From: Psychromonas sp. psych-6C06
GTDB taxonomy: Bacteria; Pseudomonadota; Gammaproteobacteria; Enterobacterales; Psychromonadaceae
Assembly: GCF_002835465.1 (NCBI RefSeq)
Contig: NZ_PIZM01000001.1
Coordinates: 496,001-560,000, forward strand
Direction of reading: 5' to 3'
Length of the DNA: 64,000 bases
Of the stretch, positions 12,954-20,979 are shown piece after piece. Within the stretch, counting starts at the first letter, position 1; every line of letters starts with the position of its first letter. A program made the position numbers and the translations under genes. The notes under the pieces are model-generated. The model ran no database searches. It saw nothing but the letters and a program-made list of their open reading frames with translations, and had not been told where the DNA came from.

Positions 12954-14081
12954 TTAGTGTGTTTTTCCTAATGTCGCTTTGAAATCTTGATAGTTGAAAC
13001 TATTTAAACATTCGATACGACCATCAATACGTTGATAATAGATGCTCGGCATTTTCAAACCATTAAACCAATTAAGTTTCACCATGGTATATCCAGCACT
13101 ATCCATCAAATGTAGCTTTTGGCCAATCTTAAGTGGCGTTTCAAACTGTGTTTCACAGAACTGATCACCAGCCAAGCAGGAGCAAGATCCAATCACATAG
13201 TTGAAAACGCCATTTTCAGTTGCTTCTCTGACACTCGCCGGTTCGTTATAAATTAAGGTATCTAAACGATGCGCTTCTGTTGCACTATCAACAATGGCGG
13301 TTTTCTTTTCATTTTCAACAATATCAATCACGCTAACAACCAAATCTGCCGTACGGGTGATGATCGCTTCACCGGGTTCGAGGTAGAGCTGAATATCATG
13401 TTTCTGGGCAAAGGCTTTAAGCGCAAATGCCAATTTTTCAATAGGGTAACCTGGATAGGTAAAGAAGATCCCTCCACCTAAACTTAGCCAGCTTAGCTTG
13501 TCTAAATAGTCGGAAAAGGTCGTTGAGATATGATCTAAAATAGCGATAAAGGCATCTACATCTTTATTCTCACAATTCATGTGAAACATAAAACCTTCTA
13601 CTTTATCTAATACCTCTGGGCTTAGTAACGCCTGTTTAACGCCTAAACGAGAATAGGGGCGAGCGGGGTTTGCGAGATCTTGTCCTGCCATACTACGTTC
13701 TGGGTTAATGCGTAAACCAAGTGAGGCATGCTCATAACAATCTGAATAATGCGCTTCAAGTTGTGATAATGAATTGAAGATGATTTTATCGGAGAGACCT
13801 TTTACAGCTTCAATATCAGCTTTAGAGTAACCCACACTATAGGCATGTGTTTCACCTCCGAACTCTTCATGCCCCAATTGCACCTCGTAGGGGCCTGAAC
13901 TGGTGGTACCATCAAGATAAGGTTTAATGGTTTCAAAGGTACCAAAGGTTGAGAAACATTTAAGCGCTAAAACGAGTTTTACTCCTGATAACTGTTTTAA
14001 CAATTTTGCTTTTTCAAGGTTATCGATAAGTTTACTTTCATCGATCATGAAGTAAGGGGTTTGTAGGTTATCTGTGTTCAT
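12954..14081 (-). CDS. nspC: Carboxynorspermidine decarboxylase
   Basis: This PLP-dependent alanine-racemase-fold decarboxylase (375 residues) makes norspermidine, or spermidine, from the carboxy precursor. [13 protein letters not shown] near residue 40 carries the PLP lysine. [14 protein letters not shown] and LYLEPGEAI are the PLP phosphate and aminobutyrate sites. [11 protein letters not shown] supplies the catalytic cysteine of the partner subunit. It is the last gene of the dat-ddc-dehydrogenase-nspC operon. The 162-bp gap upstream of it holds an octanucleotide tandem repeat, and no good ribosome binding site is visible before the ATG. Confidence 0.94.
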
Positions 14082-14243: not shown

Positions 14244-15461
14244 CTAAGCGTCTAATTCTTGCACTTGCCAAGTTAGGCCAATGCGTGGCATTAGATCTAG
14301 GAAGTGATCAGGGTTTAATTGTTCAACATTGAACAGGCCTTTATCACTCCATTTCCCTTGGAAGTATAACAACGCCGCTGTGATTGCTGGTACACCCGTT
14401 GTGTAAGAGATAGCTTGATGTTCAACTTCAATATAAGCTTCTTTATGATCGCAAATATTGTAGATAAACACGCTTTTAGCAACACCTTCTTTTTTACCAC
14501 GTACCCAAGTCCCGATACAGGTTTTACCGGTGTAACCCGAAGCAAGTGACGTAGGATCGGGTAAAATTGCTTTTAACACTTTAAGAGGTTCAACAGTAAT
14601 GCCATCAACGGTAGTGATAGGATCAGGGCTTAATAGACCGATATCACGCATTACATTGAAGTAGTTAAGGTAGCTGTCTGAGAAACCCATCCAGAATTCA
14701 ATACGTTTAGCGGGTAAGTATTCAGCCATCGAGCGAACTTCATCGTGCGCCATTGAGTAAACTTTTTGCTTACCAACAACAGGAAAATCAAATTCCATCA
14801 TACGACTATGGCAAGGGACTTGATGCCATTTTTTATCTTCAAAATAGAAAGAGTCGCCTTGAATTTCTAACATGTTAGTTTCAGGGTCAAAGTTGGTTGC
14901 AAATTTCTGACCGTGATCACCGGCATTAACATCCATTACATCGATGCTGTCAATCTCATCAAAAAGATGTTTGTGTGCGTAGGTTGCAAATACACTGACT
15001 ACACCCGGATCAAAACCTGCACCTAAAATACCGGTGATGCCCGCTTCTTTAAAGCGATCTGCAAATGCCCATTGTGGATCATAAGCCTCTGGTACTTGTT
15101 GTCCTTCGCTGCATAAATCGGTAGCGACAGAAGTATCAAGGTAGGCTGTTTGAGTTTGTACACATGCTTCCATAATCGCTACGTTAACCCATGGAGGACC
15201 TGCATTAATAAGTAGATCTGGTTTAACTTCATTGATTAGCGCAACAAGTGCTTCTACGTTGTCTGCATCTACCGTCACAGCACTGATATTTTTACTACTG
15301 TCTTTAAGGTTGTTACGGCCTTTGATAGAAGTAATGATTTTTTCACATTTAGCAACGGTACGTGATGCGATAGTAATATCACCAAAAACATCGTTATTTT
15401 GTGCACATTTATGGGCGATAACCCAACCAACGCCACCAGCGCCAATTTGTAATACAGACAT
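14244..15461 (-). CDS. Carboxynorspermidine dehydrogenase (synthase), saccharopine dehydrogenase family
   Basis: This 405-residue enzyme condenses diaminopropane or putrescine with aspartate semialdehyde, using NADPH, to carboxy(nor)spermidine. The N-terminus MSVLQIGAGGVGWVIAHKCA is the Rossmann GxGxxG; the start ATG 15461 is set by this. INAGPPWVNVAIMEACV and TGILGAGFDPGVVSVFA are family signatures. An in-frame upstream start would add 25 residues that overlap ddc. The ddc stop lies just upstream with only a base or two between, so translation is coupled. The assignment is reinforced by nspC downstream. Confidence 0.93.
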   Translation of the reverse strand: MSVLQIGAGGVGWVIAHKCAQNNDVFGDITIASRTVAKCEKIITSIKGRNNLKDSSKNISAVTVDADNVEALVALINEVKPDLLINAGPPWVNVAIMEACVQTQTAYLDTSVATDLCSEGQQVPEAYDPQWAFADRFKEAGITGILGAGFDPGVVSVFATYAHKHLFDEIDSIDVMDVNAGDHGQKFATNFDPETNMLEIQGDSFYFEDKKWHQVPCHSRMMEFDFPVVGKQKVYSMAHDEVRSMAEYLPAKRIEFWMGFSDSYLNYFNVMRDIGLLSPDPITTVDGITVEPLKVLKAILPDPTSLASGYTGKTCIGTWVRGKKEGVAKSVFIYNICDHKEAYIEVEHQAISYTTGVPAITAALLYFQGKWSDKGLFNVEQLNPDHFLDLMPRIGLTWQVQELDA

Positions 15462-15462
15462 C

Positions 15463-16935
15463 TTAATTTGCCTCTTGAGTGTGTAAAAGTTGTACTGCCG
15501 TTGTTTCAATTTTGCTAAACAAGGCATCAAAGTCATTAAGGGTTAAACAAGGATTTAACAGTGTAAATTTCAGATACAGTTTACCGTCTACTTTAGTTTC
15601 TGCGATCACTGCATCGCCAGAGGTAAGTAGCTGTAAACGTAACTTTTGATGAAGTGTGTTAAAGGCTTCTTCGCTTAGCGTTCCTTGCTTATTTAAACGG
15701 AATAACACCGTTGAAAGTAATGGCTCACAGCATAAATCAAAATGTTCATTTTTTTTGATCAAGTCTGCAACTTGTTGTGTCAATAACAGTAAGTCGTCAT
15801 ACATCGCACCTAATTTATTGGCGCCGACTGCCTTTAATGTCATGAACATTTTTAATGCATCGAAACGTTTAGTCGTCGCGATACTTTTATCAACCAAATT
15901 CGGCAGCTCATCACCTTCACGGTTAAGGTAATCAGCATGATGTAATAGGGTATTAAAGTTAGCCTTATTTTTAATCAGTAATGCCCCACAACTAATGGTT
16001 TGATAAAACAGCTTATGAAAGTCAACACTGACACTATCTGCTAATTCAATTCCAGCTAAACGTGATTTATGTGTTTCACTGAGCATTAATGCCCCGCCGT
16101 ATGCACCATCGATGTGTGACCAACAGCCACTATTTTTAGCAATGTTGACAACACGTTTGAGATCATCAATTGCACCGTGATCAGTTGTACCTGCAGTGGC
16201 AACAATCGCGATGGGTAATAGATCTTGAGCTTTTAATGAATCAATTTTTTCTTGTAAGGCATTACAATCAATCTGTCCCTGTAGGTTAGTAGCAACCGTT
16301 ACCACTGATTGCTCACCAAGGCCCATTAACGCAGCTGATTTTTGTACGGTAAAATGGCTTTTGTCTGAACAGATAATACGCATTTTATGTCCATATACAG
16401 GTAAGCCATGCTGCTGAATATTATGCTTCGAATGCTTTGCAGCAAACCAATCCCGTGCCAGTAATAATCCCATAAGGTTACTTTGGGTACCGCCACTGGT
16501 AAATACACCATCGGCCTGTTTACCCATTTGGTAAGTGTCACATAACCAATTTATTATCAATTGTTCAACATAGGTTGCAGCGGGGGCTTGATCCCATGAA
16601 TCCATCGATTGGTTTAATGCTGCAATAAAGTGCTCTGCAACCACCGATGCAATAAGCGGTGGGGTGTGCAGATGAGCGATGGTATGCGGGTGTTGCACTA
16701 AAATTGAATGTTTAGCGATTAAATCATTCACACAAGAGATAACATCAATTAAAGGCTCTGGACTATTTAGGTCAACCGCTTCAAGCTGTGCTTTTAACTT
16801 TGCAGGCTCAAGACCAGAGTATGCTTGGCTCGATTGTTGAAATAAGCTGTTTATGCTTTTTTGAGTGAGATCTGCTGCATATTCAAAGGGGCGATTATTT
16901 GCCCCTAAATGCATAAAATATTGTGCGTAGCTCAT
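15463..16935 (-). CDS. ddc: L-2,4-diaminobutyrate decarboxylase
   Basis: This group II PLP decarboxylase (490 residues) makes 1,3-diaminopropane, the norspermidine precursor. TSGGTQSNLMGLLLARDW, HIDGAYGGALML and the PLP lysine in VDFHKLFYQ are visible. The N-terminal half holds HPHTIAHLHTPPLIASVVAE, typical of the family. Its start overlaps the end of the aminotransferase gene by 4 bp (ATGA). In Vibrio cholerae, as I recall, the two activities lie in one fused protein; here they are separate but tightly coupled. Confidence 0.92.
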   Translation of the reverse strand: MSYAQYFMHLGANNRPFEYAADLTQKSINSLFQQSSQAYSGLEPAKLKAQLEAVDLNSPEPLIDVISCVNDLIAKHSILVQHPHTIAHLHTPPLIASVVAEHFIAALNQSMDSWDQAPAATYVEQLIINWLCDTYQMGKQADGVFTSGGTQSNLMGLLLARDWFAAKHSKHNIQQHGLPVYGHKMRIICSDKSHFTVQKSAALMGLGEQSVVTVATNLQGQIDCNALQEKIDSLKAQDLLPIAIVATAGTTDHGAIDDLKRVVNIAKNSGCWSHIDGAYGGALMLSETHKSRLAGIELADSVSVDFHKLFYQTISCGALLIKNKANFNTLLHHADYLNREGDELPNLVDKSIATTKRFDALKMFMTLKAVGANKLGAMYDDLLLLTQQVADLIKKNEHFDLCCEPLLSTVLFRLNKQGTLSEEAFNTLHQKLRLQLLTSGDAVIAETKVDGKLYLKFTLLNPCLTLNDFDALFSKIETTAVQLLHTQEAN

Positions 16936-18347
16936 TTCTCGCTGCCTAATACGATCGTAAATGCTTTTTTCATTGTTTCAATCACAAACTCAATTTGTAC
17001 TTCACTGATAATCAGTGGCGGTAAAAAACGCAATATTGCACCTTCACGGCCACCTTTTTCAATAATTAGACCAAGTTCTAATGCAGCTCGTTGGACACGT
17101 GCCGCTAATTCAGGATCTGCCAGCGCTTGTCCTAATGAGTTTGTTTGCTCTGGTTTAATAAGCTCAATACCATTCATTAATCCTCGGCCACGGATATCCC
17201 CAATCTGTGGAAACTGTGCTTGTAAAGTGGTTAAACCTGCACGCAGCTGTTCACCACGGCATTTTGCATTATTGGCTAAGTTATCACGTTTAATAATTTC
17301 TAATGTTTTTGCACCACTTGCCATCGCTAATTGGTTACCACGAAATGTACCAGTGTGCTCACCCGCATTCCAGCAATCAAACTTTTCATGGTAAAGAATG
17401 ATAGACATTGGCATACCACCACCAACAGCTTTAGAAAGTACTAAAATATCTGGTGTTATACCCGATGACTCAAAAGCAAAGTTATCACCAGAGCGACCGA
17501 TACCACATTGAATCTCGTCAAATATTAGTAGGATCCCATGCTCGGTTGTAATACGTCGTAATTCCTGTAGCCACTTTTTAGGCGCAGGAATGACACCACC
17601 TTCTCCTTGAATCGGCTCAACGATAATAGCTGCTGGTTTAGTAATACCACTTTCATCATCACATAATACAGATTCAATGTAGCGGATACTTTGCATTGCA
17701 CCCGCTTCACCACCTAAACCAAATTTACAACGAAAATGGTATGGAAAAGGGAAGAAGTGCACATCTGACATTAAGCCAGTGCGACGTCCTTTAGCACCTA
17801 GACTACCAGTTAAAGCAAGTGATCCATTGGTCATACCGTGATAAGCGCCATGGAAAGAGCCCATGGTATTTCTTTTGGTATACAATTTTGCTAATTTTAT
17901 AGCCGCTTCTACGGCATCTGCGCCAGAAGGGCCACAAAATTGAATACGCGCACTTTTTGCAAAATCTGTAGGGAGAAATTGCATCACTTCTTTAATAAAC
18001 GCATCTTTACTCGGTGTGGTTAGATCTAATGTTTGGTAAGGAACGCCTGCATTTAGTTGTGAAATAAGTACCTGATTGATCTCACTATGGTTATAACCTA
18101 GTGGCAATGCTCCTGCGCCAGCTAAGCAATCTAAATAAACTTGGCCTTTGGTATCTTCGACAATAACACCACGGGAAGTTTTAATGGCAATTGGAATACG
18201 GCGTGGATAAGAGCGTACTTCGGATTCATAATGCTCCTGGCTTAGCAATACTTCATCTGGAACCAAATCATAAGGTTGGGTAACGACTGGCGTTTCTTGA
18301 TAATTAGTAAGCGCAGTGTCTGGTGCAAGATTTAGGACGTTTTGCAT
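16932..18347 (-). CDS. dat: L-2,4-diaminobutyrate:2-oxoglutarate aminotransferase
   Basis: This class III PLP aminotransferase (471 residues) converts aspartate semialdehyde and glutamate to diaminobutyrate. Seen are DCLAGAGALPLGYNH, FCGPSGADAVEAAIKLAK, FDEIQCGIGRSG and the PLP lysine in LSKAVGGGMPMS. GTFRGNQLAMASGAKTLE follows. The start ATG 18347 has AAGGA 8 bp upstream. The frame stays open to 18515, but those residues are unlike the family. It is the first gene of the norspermidine operon. A promoter and a candidate leader peptide lie upstream, so regulation in the leader is likely. Confidence 0.93.
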   Translation of the reverse strand: MQNVLNLAPDTALTNYQETPVVTQPYDLVPDEVLLSQEHYESEVRSYPRRIPIAIKTSRGVIVEDTKGQVYLDCLAGAGALPLGYNHSEINQVLISQLNAGVPYQTLDLTTPSKDAFIKEVMQFLPTDFAKSARIQFCGPSGADAVEAAIKLAKLYTKRNTMGSFHGAYHGMTNGSLALTGSLGAKGRRTGLMSDVHFFPFPYHFRCKFGLGGEAGAMQSIRYIESVLCDDESGITKPAAIIVEPIQGEGGVIPAPKKWLQELRRITTEHGILLIFDEIQCGIGRSGDNFAFESSGITPDILVLSKAVGGGMPMSIILYHEKFDCWNAGEHTGTFRGNQLAMASGAKTLEIIKRDNLANNAKCRGEQLRAGLTTLQAQFPQIGDIRGRGLMNGIELIKPEQTNSLGQALADPELAARVQRAALELGLIIEKGGREGAILRFLPPLIISEVQIEFVIETMKKAFTIVLGSEK

Positions 18348-18391
18348 AACGGAATCCTTAAAAAAGTTAAAGGGTTGCCAATAAATGGAAC

Positions 18392-18428
18392 AAAAAAAAT
18401 AATGGTAATACCTTGGCGTTTCAAGGTA
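18392..18428 (-). terminator. Weak terminator-like hairpin in dat leader
   Basis: TACCTTG and CAAGGTA (18422-18428 and 18409-18415) can pair around a 6-nt loop on the minus strand. Eight T residues follow after a 9-nt gap (18399-18392). The gap is long for a classical intrinsic terminator, so this is tentative. It lies between the leader peptide stop and the dat start. Confidence 0.25.
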
Positions 18429-18459
18429 AAAAGATCTTACAGGGGTAAAACGAGGTCGC

Positions 18460-18543
18460 TCACGGTTCGGTGCTGATAGCGCCGTCGATTGCTTGGCACA
18501 ATAATGCAGGTGCACGAAAAATATAGATCGGGAAATAGTTCAT
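18460..18543 (-). CDS. Candidate 27-residue leader peptide of the norspermidine operon
   Basis: The start ATG 18543 has a strong AGGAG (18554-18550) 6 bp upstream within AAAAAAGGAGC. The peptide begins MNYFPIYIFRAPALL and ends AISTEP before TGA. It lies about 50 nt after a good promoter and 112 nt before dat. A Pro codon directly before UGA also ends TnaC, a known arrest peptide. A polyamine- or amino-acid-sensing leader is my inference. No known family is recognised. The frame differs from the open frame extending dat upstream. Confidence 0.5.
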   Translation of the reverse strand: MNYFPIYIFRAPALLCQAIDGAISTEP

Positions 18544-18598
18544 ATCATGCTCCTTTTTTAATGTGTCAATGAGTTTATTTGAGTAGTAAAGCGCGCGC

Positions 18599-18626
18599 AT
18601 TTTAGCACCGTTTATTGTGCTGGCAA
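18599..18626 (-). promoter_or_regulatory. Promoter of the norspermidine operon
   Basis: On the minus strand, TTGCCA (18626-18621) and TAAAAT (18604-18599) are spaced by 16 bp. The spacer itself has GCAC/GTGC inverted ends, which could serve as an operator. A GCGCGCGC discriminator follows the -10, a composition associated with stringent control. Predicted transcription start is near 18592. Confidence 0.55.
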
Positions 18627-18808: not shown

Positions 18809-19540
18809 GTGAATAATATTAAACAAGTATTAGTCGTTGATGATGATCAAGATATTCGAGAGTTATTGGCACAATATCTTGCTAAGAATAGTTTTGATGT
18901 GATCACCGCAGAAGATGGTGTTGAAATGGATAGCCAGCTTAAGATGCATCAACCCGACCTTATTATTTTAGATATCATGTTACCAGGTGATGATGGCTTT
19001 ACGCTTTGTCAACGAATTCGTCAAACGTCAAACGTTCCTATTATTATGCTCACTGCTAATTCCGATGAAATGGATAGGGTACTTGGCCTTGAAATCGGCG
19101 CTGATGATTATATCGCCAAACCCTTTAGTCCTCGAGAATTGTTAGCCCGTATCAAAGCGTTATTACGCCGTAGCCAGTTTACACCCGATAACAATGAAAC
19201 AGAAGCCAAAGTAAAAAGCCGATATTATCGATTTGCTGAATGGAAACTTGACACGCAGCAACATACTATATTGGATAAAGAAGGAACCACTTTTCCTTTA
19301 ACCGGTGCTGATTTTCAATTACTTATGCTGTTTATTAATAGTAATGAAGCACCAATTTCCCGGGATCAAATCTGTCAAGCGCTACATGGTCGAGATGCCT
19401 TTGCGAATGAACGTGGGATAGATGTACATGTTAGTCGTTTAAGAAACTATTTGGGTGATGATGCGAAAGCGCCGAATATTATTAAAACTGTGCGGGGTAA
19501 AGGGTACTTATTTATTGCACCGGTATCGCGTGAAAAGTAA
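18809..19540 (+). CDS. OmpR-family response regulator, GltR-like
   Basis: This 243-residue regulator has an N-terminal receiver domain and a C-terminal winged helix. The receiver shows acidic DDD near residue 11, phospho-acceptor Asp55 in LIILDIMLPG, and Lys in YIAKPFSPRELLARIKALLRR. The C-terminal domain ends in TVRGKGYLF. The start is GTG 18809 with AAGGGG upstream. Overall likeness is to GltR of Pseudomonas, which controls glucose uptake. The histidine kinase gene overlaps its stop by 1 bp. Candidate targets are the adjacent binding-protein gene and ptsG. Confidence 0.93.
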   Translation: MNNIKQVLVVDDDQDIRELLAQYLAKNSFDVITAEDGVEMDSQLKMHQPDLIILDIMLPGDDGFTLCQRIRQTSNVPIIMLTANSDEMDRVLGLEIGADDYIAKPFSPRELLARIKALLRRSQFTPDNNETEAKVKSRYYRFAEWKLDTQQHTILDKEGTTFPLTGADFQLLMLFINSNEAPISRDQICQALHGRDAFANERGIDVHVSRLRNYLGDDAKAPNIIKTVRGKGYLFIAPVSREK

Positions 19541-20979
19541 TGGGATACTTTCGCTTGTTATTCCGCTCTTTAGTCTCACGCATGTTACTGCTAACTATAG
19601 TGTCAGTGATAGCCGCCCAAACTATTAGCAGTTTCTTTTGGGTTCAGCAGTTTTCAGAAAGTGAACAAAAGTCAGTAATTATTAATGCTCAGCACCTAGC
19701 TGAAGGGGCACTTAGTACTATCTCCTTTTTTAAAGGTTTACCGCTTAAATATCGGCATTTAGTCTTAGAGCAACTACGTGGCATGGGAGGAAGTCGTTTT
19801 TTTGTTTCGTTGAACAGTGAAAAAATTGATATTAACCCAATTAAAGACAGTGAATTAAAAACAAAAGTCATTCAAACGGTTCATGACGTGTTAACCAGTG
19901 GATTATCGACCAATAAAAGTTTGGAAATTGAGTTTTCTTCGCCTGATGACTTACACGTTTTAAAAAATGATATTTTGCTTAAAGACTTACCCCCTTCCTG
20001 GGGAGCTTATTCGTTAATAATTCCCACTGCTAAACCGCCTATATTAGTCCTACAAATTGAGATAGAGGAAGGTGAGTGGCTCTATTTAGCTGCTATTTTA
20101 CCTCCTCCTTACCTATTATCTAACAATCAGCTTATCTCTGCACAGCAGGTATTAACGTTATTATTCACTACTTTTTTATTATTGTTGTTTATTTATCTAT
20201 TATTTCATCGTCAAACTAAACCATTGCAAAATTTAGCTAATGCAGTTTCTGAAATGAGCATAGACCTTGACCAAGCACCGCTTAAAGAGCAGGGCGCATT
20301 AGAAATTGTCGCTGCAACGCGTGCATTTAATCGTATGCAGCAAAAGTTGCAACGTTATATACAGGACAGGGAGCTCCTTTTCCGCTCCATATCACATGAT
20401 TTAAAAACACCAATAACTCGTTTGCGCCTGCGTGCCGAGCTATTAGATGACGAACAGCAAACTGTACGTTTTAATCAAGATCTCGATGACTTAGAAATGT
20501 TAGTAAAAGGTGCCTTACAAAGTGTTAAAGAAACCGATATTCATGAGAATATCCAAGAAGTCGACATTATAAAATTGCTCTTACAGATCAGTGAGAATAG
20601 AAGTGATCAAATATACATCGCAGAAAAGCATGTATATCCATATCGAGGAAAACCGTTAGCATTAAAACGTTGTTTATCTAATCTCATCGAAAACGGTGTC
20701 AAATATGGCCAACATGTTGAAGTTATGGTGGTGGATAATGCAGAAGAGTTACAGATCATTATTCAAGATAATGGACCAGGTATTCCTTGCAATGAACTGG
20801 AAACGATTTTTCAACCTTACAAGCGCCTACACAATGATTCTCAAGGTCATGGTCTTGGCCTTGGCATTGCGCGTAATATTATTCACGCACATAACGGTGA
20901 TTTGCATCTTATTAACCGAAAAGAAGGTGGACTAGAGGTACTTATATCGTTGCCTCGAATCTATAAAAATCAGCTGTGA
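19540..20979 (+). CDS. Sensor histidine kinase, EnvZ/GtrS-like
   Basis: This 479-residue membrane kinase has TM1 at about residues 10-35, a periplasmic domain at about 36-200, TM2 at about 203-224, then HAMP. The H-box FRSISHDLKTPITRLRLRAE carries His286. The N-box is CLSNLIENGVKYGQ, G1 is DNGPGIP and G2 is GHGLGLGIARNII. The large periplasmic domain is long enough to contact a ligand or a binding protein. The neighbouring glucose-type binding protein makes that a reasonable partner. Translational coupling with the regulator is evident. Confidence 0.93.
   Translation: MGYFRLLFRSLVSRMLLLTIVSVIAAQTISSFFWVQQFSESEQKSVIINAQHLAEGALSTISFFKGLPLKYRHLVLEQLRGMGGSRFFVSLNSEKIDINPIKDSELKTKVIQTVHDVLTSGLSTNKSLEIEFSSPDDLHVLKNDILLKDLPPSWGAYSLIIPTAKPPILVLQIEIEEGEWLYLAAILPPPYLLSNNQLISAQQVLTLLFTTFLLLLFIYLLFHRQTKPLQNLANAVSEMSIDLDQAPLKEQGALEIVAATRAFNRMQQKLQRYIQDRELLFRSISHDLKTPITRLRLRAELLDDEQQTVRFNQDLDDLEMLVKGALQSVKETDIHENIQEVDIIKLLLQISENRSDQIYIAEKHVYPYRGKPLALKRCLSNLIENGVKYGQHVEVMVVDNAEELQIIIQDNGPGIPCNELETIFQPYKRLHNDSQGHGLGLGIARNIIHAHNGDLHLINRKEGGLEVLISLPRIYKNQL

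Follow-up and report, generated by a model that had tools for sequence, protein, structure and literature searches.

In a 64,000-nucleotide (nt) stretch of the Psychromonas sp. psych-6C06 genome (the window; contig NZ_PIZM01000001.1, positions 496,001 to 560,000), the norspermidine operon begins with dat, and directly ahead of it lies a 27-codon open reading frame (ORF) that ends in Glu-Pro-UGA. We think it probable that this ORF is a translated, cis-acting termination-arrest leader, in which a pause at Glu-Pro-UGA tracks the polyamine state of the cell and sets expression of the operon, a long pause likely meaning that the operon is on. The evidence in the sequence is an ORF with a promoter-like site and a Shine-Dalgarno sequence, selection in its reading frame, the Glu-Pro-UGA end, RNA folding 3' of this end, and the norspermidine genes that follow. 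The best reading is that the minimal conserved part, Glu-Pro-UGA, is a poor termination context, and its conservation across Vibrio-like bacteria suggests that ribosome pausing controls norspermidine output.

The leader locus and its conserved end

The leader has the following parts in the window, where the closest named relative of the Psychromonas-like genome, found in a search for related loci, is Psychromonas marina (Dat 92% identical).

18599..18626, minus strand: promoter-like site of the leader transcript, TTGCCA (18626-18621), 16 nt, and TAAAAT (18604-18599), with 10 of 12 consensus matches
Within 18599..18626, minus strand: -10 element of this promoter, reading TGCTAAAAT, an extended -10
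18591..18598, minus strand: GC-rich discriminator GCGCGCGC, directly 3' of the -10
18550..18555, minus strand: Shine-Dalgarno sequence AAGGAG of the leader ORF, 6 nt before the ATG
18460..18543, minus strand: leader peptide ORF of 27 codons, MNYFPIYIFRAPALLCQAIDGAISTEP-UGA, with its ATG at 18543
18460..18471, minus strand: conserved end Thr-Glu-Pro-UGA, the proposed arrest site, picked out by conservation in relatives

We examined the sequence preceding dat in 172 fetched loci, which were split by taxon and Dat similarity rather than by operon content. Of these, 109 form the first group and come from Psychromonas, Vibrionaceae, and Motilimonas-like genomes: 52 species-assigned records (seven Psychromonas, one Motilimonas, and 44 Vibrionaceae), 24 loci of the window's genus (including one referred to below as L108), four Motilimonas-like loci, and 29 that were placed in Vibrionaceae by the agreement of their contigs and peptides with species-assigned ones. 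In 108 of the 109, dat is preceded by a frame ending [T/V/P]-E-P-UGA, and these 108 loci reduce to 82 distinct peptides, some species being present in both collections. An earlier note on this DNA, made from the letters alone, had proposed a Pro-UGA leader peptide here, and this is borne out by the terminal Pro before UGA being its most conserved part; the check that the note suggested, for frameshifts or stops in relatives, finds the same end kept at all loci but one and does not refute the proposal, with blemishes at two loci (L108 and L100) that we weigh below. Glu-Pro and UGA alone are common to all lineages. The motif occurs in none of the 63 stretches upstream of other dat genes that form the second group (L051, L059-L085, L110, and L144-L177), which were picked irrespective of norspermidine synthesis and contain a Massilia locus (L051, 66% identity), a gene that was fetched twice, and, from first-group genomes, two second copies of dat.

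A scan that did not start from dat led to the same place. In 15 evenly drawn Vibrio genomes, ATHACNGARCCNTGA gave 20 matches, 15 of which are the dat leader, one per genome, and by tblastn dat lies behind all 15 of these and behind none of the other five. A strict pattern (GGAG, ATG, 60-90 nt, Glu-Pro-UGA) has a single match in the window's own 3.7 Mb genome, which is the leader locus; among 24 Psychromonas genomes it has 23 matches, 14 of them the dat leader, and it misses the dat leader in nine of the 23 genomes having one. Further leaders of this kind, sought in the same genomes, did not emerge above background, with nine matches away from dat against eight control matches in Psychromonas and five against seven in Vibrio. 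The most leader-like of these five (L219) lies inside a coding gene and was rejected. With the window peptide as sole query against 60 genomes, we recovered the peptide itself (E 2.8e-14) and four weak matches, one of which (in genome G013) is a true leader. Five Vibrionaceae stretches (L123, L126, L132, L134, and L137) have a second GARCCN-UGA further upstream, which we read as chance.

The arrangement is also rare in shuffled sequence. When the 280-nt leader was shuffled 20,000 times with its dinucleotides preserved, 144 shuffles contained an ORF of at least 15 codons with a Shine-Dalgarno sequence and ATG; two of these ORFs end in Pro-UGA and one in Glu-Pro-UGA. UGA is the stop codon of just four of the 46 long ORFs in the window. 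All of the elements named in the earlier note (the promoter TTGCCA-16-TAAAAT with its GC-rich discriminator, the strong Shine-Dalgarno sequence, and the 27-codon Pro-UGA frame before dat) were found on the minus strand between 18626 and 18347, and the peptide ends Ser-Thr-Glu-Pro. At the promoter position, 15 of 23 Psychromonas loci have a TTG-type -35 with TAAAAT or TAGAAT that reaches the scan threshold; the remaining eight fall below it, and those whose DNA was printed retain TGATAAAATGCGCGCG after CTTGCAC. Promoter-like sites alone are weak evidence, since 8 were observed between 17400 and 19000 against 4.8 expected (standard deviation 2.3). Of the 16 loci that were aligned or printed, most have a GCGCG-type run after the -10, and we infer that the discriminator may place the transcript under stringent control. 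On the plus strand, two genes (18809-20979) that are response regulator- and sensor kinase-like by translation have divergent starts about 180 nt from the leader promoter.

Coding selection and RF02951

The 82 distinct leaders vary in synonymous codons while keeping their stop. Glu is encoded by GAA in 57 and GAG in 25, and Pro by CCT in 73, CCG in seven, and CCC in two; the residue before Glu is Thr in 70, Val in nine, and Pro in three, these being the residues kept by our script, with no other residue at the leader in the unfiltered lists. Despite synonymous changes at the Thr, Glu, and Pro codons, the stop codon is UGA in 82 of 82, and the base following it is never C.

The ratio of nonsynonymous to synonymous differences per site (pN/pS), computed from pairs that within one set are related and not independent, lies far under 1 for the coding frame of the larger sets. 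Ten 33-codon Psychromonas leaders give 0.37 in frame against 0.99 and 1.21 in the shifted frames, and 25 Vibrio leaders of 28 codons give 0.36 against 0.77 and 1.86. The window compared with its G013 counterpart (L088, also 27 codons) has a pS of 0.99 and a pN of 0.31, a ratio of 0.32 against 1.04 and 1.08; L102, L105, and L109 give 0.58 against 0.99 and 0.94, and L103 and L104 give 0.29 against 2.06 and 0.68. The larger comparisons thus point to purifying selection in the coding frame, and this selection, together with the Shine-Dalgarno sequence, suggests that the leader is translated. Start codons were first picked by a crude Shine-Dalgarno score, whose picks in Vibrio were unreliable and were replaced by TTG or GTG starts. 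Some Vibrio leader ORFs (L045 and L050 among them) carry a short inverted repeat of the type CCUGUUUU-AC-AAAACAGG before the Ile-Thr-Glu-Pro codons; Photobacterium leaders are without the stretch that bears it.

Purifying selection would equally be expected if the leader were a functional small protein whose conserved end serves the protein rather than an arrest, and the peptides of L105, L106, and L109 look membrane-helix-like by eye. We nevertheless consider this very improbable: other leaders are hydrophilic and bear no relation to one another along most of their sequence, nothing but the final residues and UGA is universal, and a role as a protein would leave the invariance of the stop codon unaccounted for.

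In Vibrionaceae, the leader adjoins an annotated RNA family, RF02951 (DABA-DC-AT RNA). With cmscan, it matches all 27 of the Vibrionaceae loci scanned (of 73 fetched), 25 of them above the gathering score and two (L017 and L025) below it, and in all 27 (L032, L046, and L014, for example) the match ends directly before the TTG or GTG that opens the ORF with the Glu-Pro-UGA end. There is no match up to E 10 in the window stretch, none at E 0.5 in 16 Psychromonas loci, and none at the gathering score in three further Psychromonas records or four Motilimonas-like loci. Of the two, the peptide end is therefore the more widely spread. The two share an operon in Vibrionaceae and differ in that the Rfam model halts before the leader peptide; we suggest that the model may describe the 5' half of a leader-peptide switch. 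The family is an orphan in role, and its name was not found in the literature searched. The loop of its hairpin 2, GGCUGAUU, is complementary to AAUCAGCU, which covers about codons 8-12 of the leader in Vibrionaceae, and a kissing interaction is possible. Complementarity is clear in many Vibrio (mean -9.8 for cognate and -9.2 for mixed pairs); among 14 divergent sequences, however, cognate pairs are no better than mixed ones (-5.2 versus -5.7 and -9.0 kcal/mol) and there is no covariation support, so we treat this pairing as a lead.

The presence of RF02951 directly upstream raises the alternative that the conserved thing is an RNA, either an element or a protein-binding site, and not a peptide. 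Stretches of the ORF are conserved at the nucleotide level in Vibrionaceae, and L100 retains the end without a recognised start codon. This is the explanation to which we give the least credence, as synonymous codons are interchanged for Thr, Glu, and Pro, in-frame pN/pS is well below 1 in the larger sets, and, with an E cut-off of 0.01, the window stretch and 16 Psychromonas loci match no Rfam family.

The operon and the RNA ahead of dat

The genes that follow the leader are those of the norspermidine pathway, in the order dat, ddc, carboxynorspermidine synthase, and nspC.

16932..18347, minus strand: dat, diaminobutyrate--2-oxoglutarate aminotransferase; TIGR00709, 533.9 bits (cut-off 401.6)
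15463..16935, minus strand: ddc, L-2,4-diaminobutyrate decarboxylase; best family NF052646, 389.5 bits, under its cut-off of 900
14244..15461, minus strand: carboxynorspermidine synthase; NF043000, 849 bits (cut-off 800)
12954..14081, minus strand: nspC, carboxynorspermidine decarboxylase; TIGR01047, 480.5 bits (cut-off 409)

With NF043000 and TIGR01047 both above their cut-offs, the family matches identify this as a norspermidine operon, as the earlier note had it. The start of the synthase was shifted to residue 26 of the listed ORF, the residue at which the NF043000 match begins. Norspermidine drives biofilm formation in Vibrio cholerae (excerpts of PMC8079147 and PMC10914755).

Between the leader stop and dat lie the following features.

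18348..18459, minus strand: structured region from the leader stop to dat, recognised by folding against shuffles in relatives
18409..18428, minus strand: stem-loop UACCUUG-6 nt-CAAGGUA (18428-18422 with 18415-18409), a stem being predicted near here in several relatives
18392-18399, minus strand: T8 run, 9 nt from the stem-loop
18378..18390, minus strand: small hairpin UUCCA-loop-UGG, with CCA/UGG kept in 10 of the 10 sequences given (of 23 loci)
18355..18373, minus strand: Shine-Dalgarno sequence AAGGA of dat (18359-18355) and a CCUU (18373-18370) able to pair with it

Measured against shuffles, the RNA from UGA to dat folds with a combined z of -5.1 in 17 Psychromonas sequences, six of which reach p<0.05 singly; its first 90 nt give -3.6, and the first 120 nt behind UGA in 23 Vibrionaceae give -11.0, all three combined values being overstated by the relatedness of the sequences. 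A control stretch upstream, taken in Psychromonas only, gives +0.1. The small hairpin offers no covariation evidence because CCA/UGG is invariant.

The hairpin and T8 run that the earlier note placed between the peptide and dat both exist, but they do not form a terminator. They are 9 nt apart, the terminator scan listed no terminator-like site on the minus strand, and T8 is present in one of 23 Psychromonas loci, the window's own; we thus ruled out an intrinsic terminator between leader and dat. Intrinsic attenuation is unlikely because Psychromonas has no hairpin followed by a conserved U-tract. A classical amino-acid attenuator of the trp or his type was set aside because the minus strand has no terminator-like site, T8 occurs in just one of the 23 loci, and the peptide lacks a codon run. 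Read-through or frameshifting at UGA into dat is also unsupported by the sequence: the distance from the stop to the matched Dat start ranges between 97 and 360 nt, and the dat-frame extension is not constant in length. In the window, no stop interrupts the dat frame in the 56 codons preceding its ATG (18515-18348, minus strand), a stretch that overlaps the leader in another frame and whose length differs among relatives.

The pairing of CCUU with the dat Shine-Dalgarno sequence bears on an opposite sign of control, in which arrest turns the operon off: polyamine would prolong the Glu-Pro-UGA pause, and the parked ribosome would favor a fold that hides the dat Shine-Dalgarno sequence. Eukaryotes have polyamine-sensitive upstream ORFs (uORFs) containing Pro, and end-product inhibition fits a biosynthetic operon. 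Three of the four pairs are kept in 10 of the 10 Psychromonas sequences given and the fourth in nine, with C-G to U-G changes only. The pairing is just 4 bp, however, and lacks two-sided change, and a gap of 97-154 nt separates the leader stop from dat in 23 Psychromonas loci, with a wider one in many Vibrionaceae loci, so that we regard this sign of control as unlikely.

The proposed pause and known leader peptides

In the mechanism that we favor, Pro-tRNA in the P site, following Glu, and UGA in the A site would together slow the action of release factor 2 (RF2), and ribosomes would pause at the leader end for a time that tracks the polyamine state of the cell (norspermidine or an intermediate of its pathway). 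While paused, the ribosome would cover the RNA just 3' of the stop, altering the folding ahead of dat (including the CCUU that can hide the dat Shine-Dalgarno sequence), the access of Rho, or both, and so setting operon expression. The most likely sign is that a long pause is operon on and fast release is operon off, and slow release at low polyamine would yield negative feedback. In Vibrionaceae there would be a second layer, RF02951, which stops right at the start codon of the leader and probably controls initiation there. We infer the pause, its effector, the sign of control, and the role of Rho, and among these the ligand and the sign are guesses.

Several observations weigh against this reading. 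The motif is absent from the 361 nt available before dat in L108 (genome G017; the contig starts there), and L100 (genome G004) keeps Ala-Thr-Glu-Pro-UGA but has no in-frame ATG, GTG, or TTG back to the previous stop. The small pair L106 and L107 shows no in-frame selection (pN/pS 0.77 versus 0.81 and 0.18 shifted). The whole leader RNA of the window folds with a z of only -1.2, with 27 of 200 shuffles as good, and covariation is weak, two-sided changes being seen at three of 18 pairs in nine Vibrio sequences and at none of eight pairs in 10 Psychromonas sequences. A C-terminal Pro is able to stall termination in Escherichia coli (PMC7246954, in excerpt, citing Hayes and others 2002), but no expression effect of one was measured in Mycoplasma pneumoniae (same excerpt). 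Leaders range from 21 to 52 codons and their N-terminal parts differ between lineages, and therefore a common sensor pocket is not seen. In place of the motif, L108, from the window's genus, has within its 361 nt a GTG ORF of 53 codons ending Pro-Pro-Phe-Glu-UAA, and the L100 leader is either decayed or unusually started.

The missing pocket bears on a ligand-induced arrest of the TnaC or SpeFL sort, in which diaminobutyrate, 1,3-diaminopropane, or norspermidine would bind the ribosome together with the nascent leader, block RF2 at Glu-Pro-UGA, and shield the RNA from Rho, turning the operon on. The anatomy is as in TnaC and SpeFL (in the excerpts cited below), UGA is invariant, and over the 60 nt that follow UGA, C outnumbers G in 22 of 23 Psychromonas loci and in 54 of 65 from Vibrionaceae. 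Upstream of the last three residues, however, the lineages have none in common, unlike what a ligand pocket would leave, and stretches far upstream often have the C excess as well (17 of 23 controls), a further point against our own reading, since a rut site is not established when such controls share the excess. We take ligand-induced arrest to be rather unlikely. Because Glu-Pro-UGA alone is universal, we favor a built-in, polyamine-tuned pause. A fuller version, in which Glu-Pro-UGA is itself the sensor, with no ligand pocket and RF2 release tuned by free polyamine, and in which RF02951 is a riboswitch-like initiation gate that makes a two-layer switch in Vibrionaceae, is conceivable but doubtful.

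If the proposed pause is right, Glu-Pro-UGA is a new minimal arrest motif, it suggests how norspermidine synthesis is set, and the orphan RF02951 gains a testable role in a leader-peptide switch, as its 5' part, and not as a switch acting directly on dat. To our knowledge, few metabolite-sensing bacterial arrest peptides have been described. For the norspermidine operon, the matches listed in our literature searches include no described leader peptide, in keeping with the earlier note, but in Vibrionaceae the RF02951 annotation already stands immediately upstream of the leader.

An acidic penultimate residue is a feature that worsens UGA termination. TnaC, from the tryptophanase operon of E. 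coli, is likewise a short leader (24 residues, versus 27 in the window) with a terminal Pro, UGA in the A site, an RF2 step, and a regulated operon downstream; its arrest at Pro-UGA holds off RF2 and shields a rut site from Rho (PMC8429421, in excerpt). In the norspermidine leader Glu precedes Pro, whereas TnaC, in that excerpt, has Arg23. TnaC has conserved internal Trp and Asp sensor residues, and Trp occurs in two of the 82 distinct leaders and not in the window's. The operon also differs in being biosynthetic and serving polyamine.

SpeFL and MdtU are gammaproteobacterial examples of stop-codon pauses or uORFs governing polyamine genes, according to an excerpt of PMC7815308. Like our leader, SpeFL, the ornithine sensor of speF, stands over a polyamine-making gene and arrests at its stop codon; it acts on release factor 1, however, and the gene downstream here is dat, not speF. 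By eye, none of the 82 leaders resembles SpeFL in its sensor motif or C-terminal end. MdtU, ahead of the spermidine exporter genes mdtJI of E. coli, shares a polyamine-related operon and conservation of the uORF that is strongest at the C-terminus, and mdtJI is affected by mdtU translation, spermidine, and Rho (PMC7815308, in excerpt). Its stop lies 106 nt before mdtJ, compared with 112 nt before dat in the window. MdtU ends WRNAL-UAG, not Glu-Pro-UGA, and was ruled out as a Glu-Pro relative. In its general features, a short ORF in the 5' untranslated region with a conserved C-terminus and stop codon, the sequence fits a termination-arrest leader, and our best reading of these comparisons is that it fails the sequence tests of TnaC, SpeFL, and MdtU yet probably works as they do.

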